A model generated the notes under the pieces. That model saw only the letters and a program-made list of their open reading frames with translations. It was not told the DNA's origin and did no database searches. The position numbers and the translations under genes were made by a program. Of a stretch of 64,000 bases of DNA, positions 14,260 through 52,906 are shown in pieces; position 1 is the stretch's first letter; each line of letters begins with the position of its first letter. The stretch is from assembly GCF_000374025.1 (NCBI RefSeq), contig NZ_KB893181.1, positions 72,034 through 136,033 on the forward strand, given 5' to 3'. Source of the stretch: Spirosoma panaciterrae DSM 21099. Its GTDB lineage: Bacteria > Bacteroidota > Bacteroidia > Cytophagales > Spirosomataceae.

Positions 14260-14273
14260 AAGAGGGGAAAAAG

Positions 14274-14350
14274 GGGAGAAAGGGAGGAAAGGGACGAAGG
14301 AGGAGAGCTATCAATCCTTTCCTTCTTCGTCCCTTTCCTCCCTTTCTCCC
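14274..14350. repeat. intergenic hairpin C, purine/pyrimidine arms
   Basis: A perfect 26-bp stem pairs 14274-14299 with 14325-14350 around 25 nt. The left arm is almost pure purine (GGGAGAAAGGGAGGAAAGGG...). It fills the gap between dnaN (stop 14354) and the transporter gene. It shares the design of the other intergenic hairpins but lacks the GCTGRCG core. Confidence 0.85.
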
Positions 14351-14353
14351 TTT

Positions 14354-15475
14354 TTATGCGTATGTATTCAACATCACAGGCATCACCAGCATCAGGATGT
14401 CTTCGTTTTCTTCTTTATCGGCTGGGATCAGCAGGCCAGCGCGGTTTGGAGCCGACATCTCCAGCGAAATCATTTTGGCGCTGAGATTGCTCAGTACTTC
14501 CGACAACAGTTTGGCATTGAATCCGATTTCCATCGGATCACCGTCGTATTCGCAAAGCAGCTTTTCATTGGCCTCATTTGAGTAGTCCAGATCTTCGGCT
14601 GAGATGGTCAGCGAGTTGGCCTTGAGCGTCAACCGAATCTGGTGGGTAGTCCGGTTGGCGTAGATCATAATCCGCTTGAGCGAGTTTAGCAAATCCGTCC
14701 GGCCGATGGTCATTACATTCGGGTTGTTGGTCGGAATCGCGTTTTCGTAATCCGGGAACCGCTCGTCGATCAGTCGACAGATCAGTTTTGTAGGGCCAAA
14801 CGTAAAGGCGGCATTCGACTGACTAAACTCGGCTGTGACGGGGGTATTCTCCGGCAACGAGGCTTTTAGGAGTTGAAGCGCTTTACGAGGAATAATAATC
14901 GAGGTACTACCCGACGCACTGAGGTCGGTCCGGCGATACCGGATAAGCCGATGCCCGTCGGTGGCTACGAACGTAGCATTGTCGCTGGTAAGTTGCAACA
15001 GAACCCCCGTCATGGCCGGGCGAAGGTCGTCGGTGCTGGTGGCAAAAACGGTATTGTTAATAGCACCCAGCAGCACATCGGAAGTCATATCGACCGACAT
15101 GTTTTTGTTGACCGTAGGCAGTTTGGGGAAGTCAATCGGGTTTTCGCCCGACAGTTTGTAACGGCCGTTATCGGTCAGAATTTCGGTGCCAAAGGTTTCG
15201 GTATCTATGTTGATCGTAACCGGCTGTTCGGGCAGGCTGCGGAGGGTGTCAAGCAATAATTTGGCTGGAATCGCAATGGAACCGTTCTCGCTCGATTCAA
15301 CCGGAATCTGAGTTGTCATGGTTGTTTGCAGATCTGAAGCGGTTACCGTAAGGGTCCCATCCTCAATGCGAAACAGGAAGTTTTCGAGGATCGGAACAAT
15401 GGGATTGGTGGCCACGACGCCGTTAATATGCTGAAGGTTTTTTAGCAGGACAGACGAGGAAACTATAAATTTCAT
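14354..15475 (-). CDS. dnaN: DNA polymerase III beta subunit (sliding clamp)
   Basis: 373 residues, the standard clamp length, with three clamp domains. Recognisable blocks are SSSVLLKNLQHINGVV, PILENFLFRIEDGTLTVTASDLQ, the GRYKLSGENPIDFPKLP strand, and VFATSTDDLRPAMTGVLLQL in domain 2. The last residues PVMLNTY form the conserved C-terminal edge near the peptide-binding cleft. It encircles DNA and tethers polymerase and other partners. dnaA and oriC are not adjacent here, common in Bacteroidota. A consensus -7 element lies 40 bases upstream. Confidence 0.97.
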   Translation of the reverse strand: MKFIVSSSVLLKNLQHINGVVATNPIVPILENFLFRIEDGTLTVTASDLQTTMTTQIPVESSENGSIAIPAKLLLDTLRSLPEQPVTINIDTETFGTEILTDNGRYKLSGENPIDFPKLPTVNKNMSVDMTSDVLLGAINNTVFATSTDDLRPAMTGVLLQLTSDNATFVATDGHRLIRYRRTDLSASGSTSIIIPRKALQLLKASLPENTPVTAEFSQSNAAFTFGPTKLICRLIDERFPDYENAIPTNNPNVMTIGRTDLLNSLKRIMIYANRTTHQIRLTLKANSLTISAEDLDYSNEANEKLLCEYDGDPMEIGFNAKLLSEVLSNLSAKMISLEMSAPNRAGLLIPADKEENEDILMLVMPVMLNTYA

Positions 15476-15585: not shown

Positions 15586-15670
15586 TAATGAGCGAAAGAG
15601 TGATTGAGCGAAAGAGCGAATGCCATCTGGCAGAAAAGGCTGCGCCAGCCATTCACTCTTTCGCTCATTA
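15586..15670. repeat. intergenic hairpin B with GGCTGGCGC core
   Basis: A perfect 18-bp stem pairs 15586-15603 with 15653-15670. The arms use the same GAGCGAAA/GAGTGA words as hairpin A at 1981. On the minus strand the arm is followed by GGCTGGCGCA (15641-15650). The loop has its own small stems, TGCCA/TGGCA and GGCTG/CAGCC. It ends 4 bases before the DUF2480 start, so it lies in that gene's leader. Confidence 0.82.
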
Positions 15671-16431: not shown

Positions 16432-17331
16432 ATGCAACTCGAAATTAAAGACCTGGCTAAAACCTATTCCAATGGCGTTCGGGCGCTGAAAGGTGTTTCG
16501 CTAACCATCCCACAGGGAATGTTTGGCCTACTGGGCCCGAACGGGGCCGGCAAATCATCACTTATGCGGACAATTGCGACCTTGCAGGAAGCCGATAGCG
16601 GTAGTGCCCGTTTCACGGGCTTGCCAGAAGGTGACCTGGATGTGTTGACGCAGAAAGACGCCGTTCGTCGGTTGCTGGGCTATCTGCCCCAGGAGTTTGG
16701 TGTTTATCCCCGCGTAACGGCCGAAGCCATGCTCGATCATATTGCTACGTTGAAAGGGATTGCCAACAGCAAAGAGCGAAAAGAAATTGTTCAGGGGTTG
16801 CTTCAGAAAGTGAATCTGTATGAGGTGCGGAAGAAGAATCTGGGAACGTATTCAGGCGGTATGAAACAACGCTTTGGTATTGCACAGGCCCTGATCGGCA
16901 GCCCCCGTCTGATTATTGTCGACGAACCAACGGCTGGTCTTGACCCTGCCGAGCGCAACCGCTTTCACAATCTGTTGTCGGAAATTGGCGAGAATACGAT
17001 TGTCATTCTGTCGACACACATTGTTGAGGATGTCACGAACCTTTGCTCCGATATGGCCATCATCTGTCTGGGTGAAGTCGTAGCTACGGGCAATCCGAAC
17101 GATCTGGTGACGGAACTGAATGGCAAGGTTTGGCAGAAATCTGTCGAGAAATCAGAAATTGATACCTATCGCCAAACGTATCAAATCATCTCCACACAAT
17201 TGAAAGGTGGTAAAACGAGGCTTCATGCCTACAGCGAAGTTCCATTGCTTGATTTCGAGCCTGTTACGCCCGATCTGGAAGACGTGTACTTTACCCGGAT
17301 TACCGAGCGAATGGGGACGGTTACTGTTTGA
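16432..17331 (+). CDS. ABC transporter ATP-binding protein
   Basis: 299 residues. Walker A GPNGAGKS at 35-42, signature YSGGMKQR, Walker B LIIVDEPTAGLD and switch histidine in STHIVED are all intact. It is the ATPase of an ABC-2 type exporter; the partner is the permease/M1 peptidase fusion at 17819. The two genes would normally abut, but here a hairpin-flanked four-helix-bundle gene lies between them, starting right at this stop codon. The C-terminal 70 residues are an extension typical of ABC-2 ATPases. Confidence 0.93.
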   Translation: MQLEIKDLAKTYSNGVRALKGVSLTIPQGMFGLLGPNGAGKSSLMRTIATLQEADSGSARFTGLPEGDLDVLTQKDAVRRLLGYLPQEFGVYPRVTAEAMLDHIATLKGIANSKERKEIVQGLLQKVNLYEVRKKNLGTYSGGMKQRFGIAQALIGSPRLIIVDEPTAGLDPAERNRFHNLLSEIGENTIVILSTHIVEDVTNLCSDMAIICLGEVVATGNPNDLVTELNGKVWQKSVEKSEIDTYRQTYQIISTQLKGGKTRLHAYSEVPLLDFEPVTPDLEDVYFTRITERMGTVTV

Positions 17332-17332
17332 T

Positions 17333-17809
17333 AGTATTGGGAGCGAGGAGCGAGTATTAGAATTGGCTGACGCACATTTTAAATCAGATACCCACCTTGT
17401 AAACATCTTTCAAATGGAGAAAACGAAGCATTTTCGGGAATTGGTCGTTTGGCAAAAGGCTCACCAGCTCGTACTTGACATTTATAGGTTAACTAAAATT
17501 TTTCTAAAAGAAGAACTATTTGGGCTTACGTCTCAGCTAAGGCGCAGTGCGGTTTCGGTTCCTGCTAATGTAGCAGAGGGTTATCGCAAACGTACTATTC
17601 CTGACAAGTCCAAATTTTTGAATATTGCCCAAGGGTCATTGGATGAAACACACTACTACCTGATTCTTGCTCAGGATCTCGGTTATGGTAGTACTGAAAT
17701 TTTACAAGTGAATCTTGAAGAAGTAGCCCGCCTATTGACGGCTTACTATAACGCTGTGGAAGCCAGGCGTTGACTTTACTCCTAATACTAACTCCTCGCT
17801 CCTAAGACT
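17333..17809 (+). mobile_element. hairpin-flanked four-helix-bundle cassette
   Basis: Imperfect inverted repeats pair 17333-17360 with 17782-17809; the inner 21 bp (17340-17360/17782-17802) differ at two positions. After the left arm, 17365-17374 reads GGCTGACGCA, the core shared with gene-less hairpins; inside the right arm GGCGTTGAC (17767-17775) is a decayed counterpart. A complete four-helix-bundle gene lies in the loop. The cassette begins one base after the ATPase stop and ends 9 bases before the permease start. Insertion into an ABC operon is inferred; no target duplication is obvious. Confidence 0.65.
17414..17773 (+). CDS. four-helix-bundle protein (23S rRNA IVS/Avd-like)
   Basis: 119 residues, full length for the family (TIGR02436). 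Hallmarks are the opening FRELVVWQKAHQLVLDIY, LTSQLRRSAVSVPANVAEGY near 38-57 and the helix FLNIAQGSLDETHYYLILA. The family is known from 23S rRNA intervening sequences and, as Avd, from diversity-generating retroelements; no such system is seen here. I chose ATG 17414; the frame is open earlier but only overlaps the ATPase gene. The 9-mer ATACCCACC lies 17 bases upstream (17388-17396) and recurs before the other copy at the left edge. The gene is enclosed by inverted-repeat arms. Confidence 0.92.
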   Translation: MEKTKHFRELVVWQKAHQLVLDIYRLTKIFLKEELFGLTSQLRRSAVSVPANVAEGYRKRTIPDKSKFLNIAQGSLDETHYYLILAQDLGYGSTEILQVNLEEVARLLTAYYNAVEARR

Positions 17810-17818
17810 TCTAACCCC

Positions 17819-20800
17819 ATGTTCACCGAAATTTTCCGTTTCGAATTGGCGTATCGACTTAAACGCCCTGCTACATATCTCTACGCCCTGATTCTCTTTC
17901 TGTTTACGTTTCTGTTTGTTATATACGGAAACGGACCGGCATCGGAGAAAACAAATGTCAATTCACCTTATGCCATTACCGGGTTTATGGTGGTACTGAC
18001 CATATTCGGGATGCTCATTTCGTCGGCCATCATGGGCGTGCCGGTGTATCGCGAAATTGAACACAATACCAAAAACTACTTTTTCAGCTTTCCAATTACT
18101 GAGCGGGGGTATATTCTGGGGCGGTATTTGGGCTCGTTTGTCGTACTGTTAAGCATTATGGCGGTGGGTATGCTTGGTATCGTTATTGGTTCATTGTTGG
18201 GGCCGGTGTTTAATCTGGCCGACAATACCGAGCGATTCGGGCCAATTCGGTTTTGGGATTATGCATCACCATTTTTGATGCTTGTCATCCCGAATATGTT
18301 TTTGACCGGCAGCATATTCTTTGCATTGGTAGCTTTTTCGCGGCAGGTATTTACTACCTATGCAGGAAGTATTTTGCTGTTTATTGCCTACCTGCTGGGT
18401 TCTACGCTCTCGCAGGATTTGGAAAACAAACACCTCGTTAATCTGCTCGACCCGTTCGGTTCCTATGCCAGTGATAATGCGGCTAAATATTGGACCCCCA
18501 TAGAACAAAATACCCTCAATATACCCTTGGAGGGTGATCTGTTGACCAACCGATTGATCTGGTCGGGTGTAGCGCTGCTGGTGTTCTTATTGACGGTCTT
18601 TCGGTTCAGTTTCGCCCGCTTTCTGGCCGTTAAGCTAGGCAAAAAGGCCAAAGGTGAGGTTATCTCCGAAAAAGCACCTTCGCTGGCAAGCCTGCCCACG
18701 CCGACACCCGTTTTTCAGGTCAGTACCTACATTGGGCAGATGGTCAAACAGGCGCGGATTGAGTTTAGTAACATCATCCGCGATCCGTATTTCATTGCTA
18801 TTCTGCTCGGGGCGGTGCTGTTCCTGTTTCTGGATGGCTGGTTTGGGGTTCAAACCTATGGCACCCCCTCGCTGCCAACTACGTATACCATGCTTGAGGC
18901 CCGGAACGGTACGTTCTTTTTCTTCGTACTGATCGTCATTATTTTCTATACGGGCGAGGTAGTTCACCGCGATAAAGTGGTCCATTACGACACCATTGCC
19001 GATGCGTTACCCGTTCCCGACTGGATGAATTACGGGGCCAAGCTGTTGGCTATGACCTACATCTGTCTGCTGCTCTGTACACTAATTATCGTGTCGGGCG
19101 TGTTGGATCAGACCGTAAAAGGCTATTTCAATTACGAATTTGGACTGTATTTCCGCGATGCCTACGGGATTGCCTTTACCCAGTATTTTCAACTGGTGAT
19201 GCTGGCCTTTTTTGTCCATACGATGGTGAACCAGAAGTTTGTGGGGCACATCGCTACGCTGGCTACCTACATTGTTATCTGGGCGGTGCCGCAGTTTGCC
19301 GAATTCAATTATAAGCTGGCGTTGCCTTTTTCGGGTGGCGGAGTTCAACTTTCCGACATGAACGGATTTGGGCATTACCTGTCTTCGCTGGCGTCGTTTC
19401 GGGTGTACTGGTATGCCTTTGGGGGTATTCTGCTGGTATTGGCCCTTTGGTTCTGGAATCGGGGAGCCGATACAGGGTTCAAGTCGCGCTGGCAACTGGC
19501 CCGGCAGCGGATGGGCAAACTGTCGATGGGGTTAGTGGCTTTGTTGGTACTGGCCTTTGTGAGCATGGGGGCCTGGATTTATACCAATGTAAGTGTAAAG
19601 AACCGCTACTATTCGGCCGATGAACAGCGAGAACAACAGGCCAGCTACGAGAAAAAATACCACAAGTATGCTAATGTGCTTCAGCCAAAAATTACCAGTG
19701 TCAAACTAGCTGTCGATGTGTTTCCGGAGGAGTTTAAGGCGGTAGCAACCGGACTATTTTCGATTGTGAATAAGGGCGATCAACCCATCGACTCCCTGCA
19801 CCTGACCATTCCGCCCGACAATTTCCATAGGAAGCTAACGAAATTCACCATCGACGGACAAGCTCCCAAGCTGATCCTGAACGATACGGATTTTGGCTAT
19901 TACATCTATAAGCTTCCAAAAACATTGAATCCGGGCGACACGGCGCGTATGGAAATGGACGTGACTGGGCAGTATACCGGATTTCCGAACAGTGGCGATC
20001 AGCGGGAAGTCGTATCCAACGGTACATTTTTCAACGTGGGCATCTTCCCCGGCTTTGGATACAATGCCGATGGCGAACTCAGTAGCGACAAGTACCGGAA
20101 GAAGTACGGTTTGCCTGTGAAAGAATGGACAGTTCCGGCCCAAAACGATCCGCGTGGTTTGCGCGATTTTCTATTTACCGACGATGCCGACTGGGTAACG
20201 TTTGAAGGCACCATCTCGACAACTCCCGACCAAACGGCTATTATGCCGGGCGAGTTACTCAAAACCTGGACCGCTAATGGACCCGATGGCAAACCGCGCA
20301 AGTATTTTCAGTACAAGCTCCCCAGTTTCTCCGATTATTTCTTCAGCATGTGTTCAGCGAAATACGCCGTAAAACGCGATTCATGGACGGGACCTGATGG
20401 AAAAAAGGTTGTGCTCGAAATTTACCATCACCCCGGCCACGACCAGAACCTCGATCGGTTTATGGCGAGTATGAAAGCGTCGCTGAGCTATTACACCAAA
20501 AACTACGCGCCCTATCCGTACCCGGTGTTGCGGGTTTTGGAATTTCCGCGCTATGCCGCTTTCGCTCAGTCGTTCCCGACCACAGTGCCGTATTCCGAAG
20601 AGTTTGGCTGGGTCGGTGATTTCCGCGATCCCGACAAAACCGATTACGCGTATTACGTAACGGCTCACGAGGTGGCGCACCAGTGGTGGGGCCACCAGAT
20701 CATGCCCAGCCGGACGCGGGGGGCTAACCAGATTTCGGAAACGATGGCCGAATACTCAGCACTGATGGTGCTGAAAGAACGCTACGGTGTCGATGCTATG

Positions 20801-21466
20801 CCGAAGTTTCTGAAATACAGTCTGGATCGGTATCTGGGTGGTCGGGCGTTTGAGGATAAATTTGAAGCCAACATGCTCGACAACGACACCCGCTCGTACG
20901 TCTGGTATCAGAAAGGGTCAATGCTGATGTATGCCTTGCAGGATTACATTGGTGAGGCCCGTGTGAATCAGGCTATGAACGACTACATGAAAGCCGCCCG
21001 GTTCCGTCAGAAAGCACCGTTTACTACCTCACTCGAATGGTACAGTTTCCTGAAAGCCGCTACGCCCGATTCACTCAAACCCTGGTTGGCCGATAATTTC
21101 GAGAAACTGACACTTTACGACAATCGGATTACCAAAGCCGAAGCCAAATCCATCGGAAAAGACCAGTACCGGATTAAACTGTATGTCCGCTCAGCCACTG
21201 AGTATTACGACAAGGCGGGTAAGGAACTTGGCAAAGGGAAAGGGCCAGTTCTGGTCGACATTGCGGTGCTGACCGACGATAGTAAGAACAAAGATGGGCT
21301 AACGGTCAAAGTGCCGCTGTATATGCAGAAGCGCAGCCTGACACCCGGTGAGCACGTGATTGAGGTAACCGTAAAAGGCAAGCCCGTCAAAGCAGGAATC
21401 GATCCGTATAACAAGCTGATCGACCGCGTTTCGGACGACAATCTGGTAACCGTAGATATGCCGTAA
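17819..21466 (+). CDS. ABC-2 permease fused to M1-family metallopeptidase
   Basis: 1215 residues. Residues 1-600 hold two blocks of about six membrane helices each, beginning EIFRFELAYRLKRPATYLYA, typical of an ABC-2 permease. Residues 640-1215 form an extracytoplasmic M1-type peptidase: zinc motif HEVAHQWWGH with H950, E951, H954, then E974 in SETMAEYSAL. The glutamate is 20 residues past the second histidine, one more than in classic M1 enzymes. The GxMEN exopeptidase motif is not visible; FPTTVPYSEEFGW stands at about that place. The fusion is a recognised Bacteroidota family; export of peptides or coupling of proteolysis to transport is inference. Its ATPase is at 16432. Confidence 0.92.
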   Translation: MFTEIFRFELAYRLKRPATYLYALILFLFTFLFVIYGNGPASEKTNVNSPYAITGFMVVLTIFGMLISSAIMGVPVYREIEHNTKNYFFSFPITERGYILGRYLGSFVVLLSIMAVGMLGIVIGSLLGPVFNLADNTERFGPIRFWDYASPFLMLVIPNMFLTGSIFFALVAFSRQVFTTYAGSILLFIAYLLGSTLSQDLENKHLVNLLDPFGSYASDNAAKYWTPIEQNTLNIPLEGDLLTNRLIWSGVALLVFLLTVFRFSFARFLAVKLGKKAKGEVISEKAPSLASLPTPTPVFQVSTYIGQMVKQARIEFSNIIRDPYFIAILLGAVLFLFLDGWFGVQTYGTPSLPTTYTMLEARNGTFFFFVLIVIIFYTGEVVHRDKVVHYDTIADALPVPDWMNYGAKLLAMTYICLLLCTLIIVSGVLDQTVKGYFNYEFGLYFRDAYGIAFTQYFQLVMLAFFVHTMVNQKFVGHIATLATYIVIWAVPQFAEFNYKLALPFSGGGVQLSDMNGFGHYLSSLASFRVYWYAFGGILLVLALWFWNRGADTGFKSRWQLARQRMGKLSMGLVALLVLAFVSMGAWIYTNVSVKNRYYSADEQREQQASYEKKYHKYANVLQPKITSVKLAVDVFPEEFKAVATGLFSIVNKGDQPIDSLHLTIPPDNFHRKLTKFTIDGQAPKLILNDTDFGYYIYKLPKTLNPGDTARMEMDVTGQYTGFPNSGDQREVVSNGTFFNVGIFPGFGYNADGELSSDKYRKKYGLPVKEWTVPAQNDPRGLRDFLFTDDADWVTFEGTISTTPDQTAIMPGELLKTWTANGPDGKPRKYFQYKLPSFSDYFFSMCSAKYAVKRDSWTGPDGKKVVLEIYHHPGHDQNLDRFMASMKASLSYYTKNYAPYPYPVLRVLEFPRYAAFAQSFPTTVPYSEEFGWVGDFRDPDKTDYAYYVTAHEVAHQWWGHQIMPSRTRGANQISETMAEYSALMVLKERYGVDAMPKFLKYSLDRYLGGRAFEDKFEANMLDNDTRSYVWYQKGSMLMYALQDYIGEARVNQAMNDYMKAARFRQKAPFTTSLEWYSFLKAATPDSLKPWLADNFEKLTLYDNRITKAEAKSIGKDQYRIKLYVRSATEYYDKAGKELGKGKGPVLVDIAVLTDDSKNKDGLTVKVPLYMQKRSLTPGEHVIEVTVKGKPVKAGIDPYNKLIDRVSDDNLVTVDMP

Positions 21467-31838: not shown

Positions 31839-31938
31839 AATTCGTTGTTTGTCATCTCGACGCAGGAGAGATCGTAAAGCATCCTTACTAGAGGTAAACT
31901 TGAGATCTCTCCTGCGTCGAGATGACAAACAACGAATT
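31839..31938. repeat. 35-bp perfect palindrome F
   Basis: 31839-31873 pairs perfectly with 31904-31938, loop 30 nt. The arm contains GTCATCTCGACGCAGGAGAG, a word I associate with dispersed intergenic repeats in Bacteroidota; its identity with such a family needs a search. It lies 25 bases after the susD-like stop and before a classic terminator. Confidence 0.9.
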
Positions 31939-52811: not shown

Positions 52812-52906
52812 AGTAGTAGGAGCGAGTAGTGAGTAATAGGAGTTGCTGACGCAAAATCCATTGATGCGTCAGCAACTCCTGTTACTCACTACTCGCTCCT
52901 ACTACT
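52812..52906. repeat. 42-bp near-perfect hairpin E with GCTGACGCA core
   Basis: 52812-52853 pairs with 52865-52906 over 42 bp with one G-T pair, loop 11 nt. The outer arm AGTAGTAGGAGCGAGTAGTG is followed by TGCTGACGCA (52844-52853) and its full complement on the other side. It lies between convergent ndk and nth, and its right half encodes the last residues (VVGASSE) and the stop of nth. Confidence 0.92.

Follow-up and report, generated by a model that had tools for sequence, protein, structure and literature searches.

In Spirosoma panaciterrae DSM 21099, a small four-helix-bundle gene of family PF05635 (23S_rRNA_IVP; hereafter IVP) lies inside inverted tandem-repeat arms between two operon genes, those for an ABC transporter ATPase and its permease, and this anatomy is well supported. 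The feature can be explained, with a probability that we put at about 0.47, slightly short of even, as a slow-moving IVP-hairpin cassette of a gene-plus-hairpin system in which the IVP protein would recognize its own arms. The armed IVP genes and the gene-less hairpins scattered through the sampled genomes, taken together, hint at an unrecognized gene-plus-hairpin partnership. Throughout, the window is the whole 64,000-nucleotide stretch of DNA that was analyzed, and its source genome is referred to as G000.

Architecture of the cassette

The ATPase ORF (16432-17331; PF00005, 96 bits) is the upstream neighbor and lies, as do all elements of this junction, on the plus strand. It is followed by a C-poor left arm of 28 nt (17333-17360) made of GGAGCGA-like 7-nt units, a unit type common to the orthologous cassettes; by the motif GCTGACGC just inside that arm (17366-17373), which recurs in hairpins with unlike arms; by the IVP gene of 119 codons plus stop (17414-17773); by the right arm, an inverted copy (17782-17809) complementary to the left arm at 24 of 28 positions; and, downstream, by an ABC-2 permease fused to an M1 peptidase (17819-21466; PF12730, PF01433). 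The arms, 28 nt each, are 86% complementary and 421 nt apart. The first-pass annotation, made from the letters of the sequence, had described imperfect 28-bp arms around a complete 119-codon helix-bundle gene, with the left arm one base past the ATPase stop and the permease start nine bases past the right arm; our coordinates agree with both boundaries, and the PF05635 match confirms the gene.

Scored without gaps at +1 for a match and -2 for a mismatch, the arm pair reaches 16, a value attained by 1 of 1286 same-size pseudo-gene windows drawn from the fetched loci. Folded as RNA, positions 17325-17818 give -139.4 kcal/mol (z -3.05), which 1 of 100 shuffles matched, and in an Rfam scan of the window no family reached its gathering score. 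The cassette sits between protein genes and not in 23S rRNA; since neither neighboring ORF is interrupted, a rejoining of the transcript would not be needed.

The window IVP protein scores 120.9 bits against PF05635 (cut-off, 33.8), and the closest solved structure by sequence is 2gsc (XCC0516, 85.5 bits). A Pfam scan of the protein listed PF05635 and bAvd (PF22296) alone, with no catalytic domain, and the bAvd match of 21.2 bits falls below the cut-off of 40. Two settings had been named for this family at first pass, 23S rRNA intervening sequences (IVSs) and, as Avd, diversity-generating retroelements (DGRs). The protein belongs to the family of the former; identity with the latter was rejected: the likeness to Avd, which we take to be a four-helix-bundle relative of IVP, is confined to that weak bAvd match, and the DGR link fails because a search of G000 (8.1 Mb, 99.99% complete) for the reverse transcriptase family PF00078 gave no matches at E ≤ 0.001. 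Among 21 IVP ortholog pairs compared, 18 were saturated; dN/dS in the three unsaturated pairs was 0.11, 0.05 and 0.02, low values which suggest that the protein matters.

All five IVP matches of G000 lie between inverted arms (scores 15 to 24); the tandem pair L004/L005 has one common repeat unit, and each of the remaining three loci has its own. One of the latter is the second IVP gene of the window (L003, minus strand, PF05635 match at 21-326), which has ATGTATGATATATG-type arms and an adjoining hairpin of its arm type at 363-440. The L004/L005 cassettes (G000:C57) flank a gene that by eye resembles an oxidoreductase. IVP matches were present in 193 of 247 sampled Bacteroidota genomes; among 50,697 phage records, none was found at E 1e-5.

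IVP genes and their arms in other genomes

We call arms strong when the enclosing inverted repeat scores at least 13, and use at least 11 as a looser threshold. Strong arms enclose 75 of 102 IVP loci (74 of the genus and 28 named ones, which are not independent, since several named loci share a site), compared with 6 of 1286 pseudo-gene windows; left flanks combined with the right flank of another locus gave 16 of 510. The looser threshold is reached by 88 of 102 loci, 42 of 1286 windows and 31 of 510 swapped flanks. Taken alone, the named loci, of which several occupy a common site, have strong arms in 24 of 28 cases. When ORFs of at least 90 aa were scored instead, 18 of 659 reached 13, six of these being IVP genes and one lying between tandem IVP genes, which gives 12 of 653 for non-IVP ORFs. 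Pseudo-gene windows, flank swaps and the ORF control together exclude a chance bracketing of IVP genes.

Strong arms were found in 14 of the 30 loci returned from the 247 Bacteroidota genomes (3 of 240 windows), and the six plasmid IVP loci fetched, of 34 records, have arm scores of 14 to 27. In the genus catalogue, which includes fragments and holds 107 of 108 matches (G002:C104:1035-1337 being left out), 70 loci score at least 13 and 88 at least 11. The 70 fall at 17 sites; IVP sites are few and stable, and the mobility of the cassette looks slow.

The left arms of the 75 strong loci contain 4.3% C and 37.6% G. Their best period is 7 or 14 in 54 loci, 8 in 11, 9 in 9 and 15 in 1, and their periodicity lies above all 50 of their own shuffles in 55 of the 75. 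Being built of short tandem units, mostly of period 7 or 14, they resemble the short tandemly repeated repetitive (STRR) sequences of cyanobacteria. The arm unit tracks IVP protein similarity at non-orthologous sites, both within the genus (r = 0.59, 1163 pairs) and over all loci (r = 0.39, 3764 pairs), with 0 of 2000 permutations reaching either value. One orthologous IVP site carries TGAGTGATG in G017 and AATGATG in G034, G005 and G032; genome-wide, G017 has 58 matches to GATGAGT (51 of them away from IVP loci) and none to GATGAATG, and the other three genomes have 0 to 2 and 14 to 42, respectively. Judged from these sequences, turnover of the arm unit at this IVP site is in step with the genome-wide matches.

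On a Picosynechococcus plasmid, an armed IVP cassette (L287) separates cas10 from a Cmr3-family gene. In a figure legend of one report, 23S rRNA IVP is named among the associations of CRISPR adaptation modules (PMC10910872).

Insertion, loss and exchange at the junction

The permease has a match in 38 of 59 genomes and a close ortholog (at least 80% identity) in 21 Spirosoma genomes, G000 included (L034-L054), whose junction states were scored by eye. An intact cassette is present in seven of the 21 (G000, G023, G024, G025, G026, G027 and G035), pieces of the IVP gene in three (G001, G019 and G004, in the last of which the script located no ATPase end), arm-like traces in three (G022 and, faintly, G018 and G028), other sequence or hairpins in five (G002, G010, G011, G014 and G032) and short spacers in three (11 nt in G016 and G034, 72 nt in G007). 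Among more distant orthologs within the taxonomic order, the junction measures 27 nt in G054 and 218 nt, without the gene, in G040, and the two genes overlap in G038; two Runella loci have a cassette at the same ATPase-permease junction. In L043 (G024) and L006 (S. spitsbergense), the ATPase frame runs into the left arm, most of which is now coding. A comparison by eye of filled with 11-nt sites made no target-site duplication evident.

In the permease tree, G000 groups with G004 and G027 (100/100) and G023 with G026, G025 and G035 (92/92), whereas the IVP DNA tree joins G027 to G025, G026 and G035 (99/99) and G000 to G023 and G024 (89/91). AU tests on the IVP DNA rejected two groupings taken from the permease tree, G000 joined to G027 (p = 4.4e-4) and G023 joined to G025/G026/G035 (p = 5.6e-5); an IVP protein tree had already been inspected when they were tested. 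The trees were built without G016, and 15 of the 36 genus genomes, having no close permease ortholog, are absent from the permease tree. This conflict between gene and flank suggests that the cassette has been exchanged at a fixed junction site; it could also reflect two old IVP copies that were sorted differently. The complementarity of the junction arms within species (16.5) exceeds cross-species matching (13.0) slightly, and compensatory change is not claimed on that basis.

The view taken at first pass, that a cassette had entered an operon, is borne out by the gene-free 11-nt sites of G016 and G034, by the pieces and intact copies at one junction and by the conflicting trees. Most of the other four-helix-bundle genes examined proved to be flanked by arm pairs of similar build; an invariant gene in ubiquitous arms, or arms unrelated to those elsewhere, which the same annotation had named as contrary to its view, is not what we found.

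Hairpins without a gene

A scan of 484 kb of G000 gave 71 short hairpins with a score of at least 16, 4 of them beside an IVP gene; the 67 gene-less ones, of all types, amount to 13.8 per 100 kb. Within the window, two gene-less hairpins of AAAGAGYGA type (1970-2041 and 15586-15670) each have a 5-mer sharing of 0.89 with the arms of IVP locus L005, and one of GGGAGGAAA type (14269-14355) has a sharing of 0.67 with those of L002; the site of the last bears differing hairpin arm types in G000, G027/G035, G023, G019 and G022. A gene-less, AGGAGCGAG-like hairpin with GCTGACGCA in its loop (52812-52906) has a sharing of 0.35 with the arms of the window cassette, below the threshold of 0.4, and of 0.65 with those of the orthologous cassette L069.

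We took a 5-mer sharing of at least 0.4 as a match to a genome's own IVP arms, leaving out 7 hairpins within 600 nt of IVP genes. On this measure, 11 of 32 hairpins match in G017, a clear excess over the arm sets of other genomes (mean 2.0, maximum 5), and 21 of 67 in G000, a modest one (mean 9.0, maximum 18). Little or no excess was seen in G027 (2 of 13; mean 1.6, maximum 4), G035 (1 of 7; mean 0.64, maximum 2), G023 (2 of 27; mean 2.3, maximum 4) and G019 (0 of 7; mean 0.09, maximum 1); G004 and G022 have no own IVP arm set for such matching.

Exact unit patterns were also counted over 36 genomes with IVP loci subtracted; the matches overlap in tandem arrays and are therefore not counts of elements, and the p values are not corrected for descent. 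AATGATG has 12 to 36 matches in the seven genomes with an IVP that bears the unit in both arms, the other genomes having 22, 13 and then at most 7 (p = 1.7e-5). GAGYGAAA is commoner where the IVP bears it (p = 0.001), with none in 1 of 9 bearing genomes, and so is GATGAGT (p = 1.8e-4, two bearing genomes), of which the 26 matches in G013 sit in two arrays. For TTGAATGA there is no significant link with an IVP that bears it (p = 0.13), its matches peaking in G017 (37), whose IVP has the unit on one side only. When descent was corrected for on a 20-genome tree, about four independent pairs for AATGATG and about three for GAGYGAAA went as expected and none against (sign test, p = 0.125 and p = 0.25, respectively); with so few pairs, the link between unit and IVP does not reach significance. 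A forecast of GTTGAATGATTGAATG arms on the fourth G017 IVP failed; GTTGAGTGATTGAATG was found there, and its arms score no more than 10.

The motif GCTGACGC, which was noticed first and tested afterward, occurs in 18 of 174 hairpins against 1.04 expected (or 18 of 167 once hairpins adjoining IVP genes are set aside), several of the 18 being copies of one G017 family; 11 of 107 IVP loci carry it in a flank, against 2.86 expected. In the window it recurs at 17366-17373, 52812-52906 and 1970-2041. Another family of hairpins, non-periodic and comprising TTTTGTCATCCCGACG with its variants, is seen in L163, L168, L173 and L182 and in the window at 31839-31938. In L170, L171, L174 and L184, long ORFs that by eye resemble FtsX-type permeases stand between hairpins of like type.

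Relation to known systems

REP/REPIN sequences and their RAYT transposase form a system in which a gene is flanked by palindromic repeats, gene-less copies are many and the repeat type is tied to lineage. IVP likewise is one gene in palindromic flanks with a lineage-tied repeat type, and the many gene-less hairpins are candidates for copies cognate to those flanks, but the window gene is by Pfam scan no Y1 transposase, unlike RAYT, no enzymatic domain was found in its protein, and its arms are short tandem repeats. With 23S rRNA IVSs, the cassette shares the PF05635 family and the position of the gene inside inverted arms; according to the accessible text on Coxiella, the 23S IVS is excised by RNase III and carries S23p in sense, with tandem heptamers before the ORF (PMC4990558). 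The window cassette differs in lying between protein genes and in having matching gene-less hairpins elsewhere in the genome.

The heptameric repeats of Xanthomonas and Nostoc resemble IVP arms in being intergenic 7-nt repeats that form inverted pairs, 70 and 75 of them in two Xanthomonas genomes; that source describes no general link to mobile elements, and, as a point of difference, a term search of its text found none of the words 23S, intervening and helix (PMC4692102). A literature search, mostly outside subscription papers and over partial texts, returned no link of IVP genes with repeat hairpins beyond rRNA.

Possible mechanism and alternative explanations

The history of such a cassette may be rationalized in several steps: (i) one IVP gene within inverted short-tandem-repeat arms was inserted as a unit between operon genes, after which the cassette was kept, probably exchanged, or lost; (ii) each IVP lineage has its own arm unit, and gene-less hairpins of that unit would be spread through the genome; (iii) the IVP protein may bind its own arm hairpin; (iv) IVP, together with a host nuclease or a replication fork, may help to copy or replace cognate hairpins; and (v) IVP may promote the exchange of cassettes at hairpin-accepting intergenic sites. 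The role of the protein in this system is one that we infer; the lack of a reverse transcriptase match, the low dN/dS and the lack of wobble asymmetry (see below) favor recognition at the DNA level by IVP with a host enzyme.

A competing explanation, which we regard as unlikely, is that these are terminator-like or processing hairpins of the host, their arms arising by slippage and being perfected by quasi-palindrome template switching, and that IVP is an ordinary insulated gene whose arms resemble the gene-less ones because all belong to one genome-wide pool. Of 132 ordered pairs compared at orthologous hairpin sites, 88 have a hairpin in the relative too, and the arm type is kept in 30 of these 88; given this switching of type between species at gene-less sites, the arms of IVP genes could in part mirror such a pool. 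The stability of IVP sites (70 loci at 17 sites) and the finding that divergent ORFs flank 1 of 66 typed IVP loci would also fit. Other ORFs are, however, rarely bracketed (12 of 653), the gene and flank trees conflict, and orthologous IVP sites share their arm type in 167 of 211 pairs, oftener than the gene-less ones, a contrast that is only indicative, since the two samples differ in species and in the selection of strong arms.

Rather improbable, in our judgment, is an intervening sequence acting at the RNA level, in which the arms would form a stem in the mRNA of the operon, this stem would be cut by RNase III and the neighbors would be expressed from separate fragments, the element persisting because its insertion is harmless. 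Such a reading draws on the Coxiella IVS described above, with its RNase III excision and its heptamers before the S23p ORF, and on the window element folding better than 99 of 100 shuffles; by automatic neighbor calls, the ORFs on both sides of the IVP gene run in one direction, with the gene in sense, in 42 of 74 genus loci, but with the gene in antisense in 11 of 74. Over the 133 IVP loci scoring at least 11, arm mismatches read on the sense strand of the gene comprise 70 G-U and 75 A-C; there is no G-U excess, and RNA processing is therefore unsupported. A lean toward G-U is found instead in the gene-less hairpins, read with the C-poor arm first (57 vs 33, p = 0.015), and is weak because the choice of strand is there a convention. 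The RNA-level reading also leaves gene-less hairpins of matching unit unexplained.

A further explanation, which we consider highly improbable, is that the hairpins are miniature transposable elements, mobilized in trans by some conventional transposase, and that IVP is their passenger. Inverted arms, numerous gene-less hairpins and two Y1 transposase (Y1_Tnp) matches in a PF01797 search of G000 would suit such elements, but the arms are tandem repeats that differ between lineages and not fixed termini, no target-site duplication is evident by eye at the junction sites, and the unit of the arms goes with the lineage of the IVP.

Under the preferred reading of an IVP-hairpin cassette whose protein recognizes its own arms, linking the common IVP genes with intergenic heptamer repeats makes the function of both testable. 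A small gene can, moreover, sit in an operon without breaking its neighbor, be it an ABC transporter, as here, or cas10 and a Cmr3-family gene, as on the Picosynechococcus plasmid. A bolder extension, which we hold to be doubtful, would make IVPs the trans-acting half of a widespread class of bacterial hairpins, each lineage reading its own arm and causing gene-less hairpins to be copied through replication, without transposase or reverse transcriptase; if true, this would explain as one system the 23S intervening sequences and the heptameric repeats found in xanthomonads and cyanobacteria, and GxxExxY would be a parallel partner family. GxxExxY genes of the genus (PF13366, PDDEXK_3) have strong arms in 24 of 29 loci (L223-L250 and L252, the fragment L251 being left out) compared with 1 of 227 windows, and their arm units are unlike those of IVP genes.
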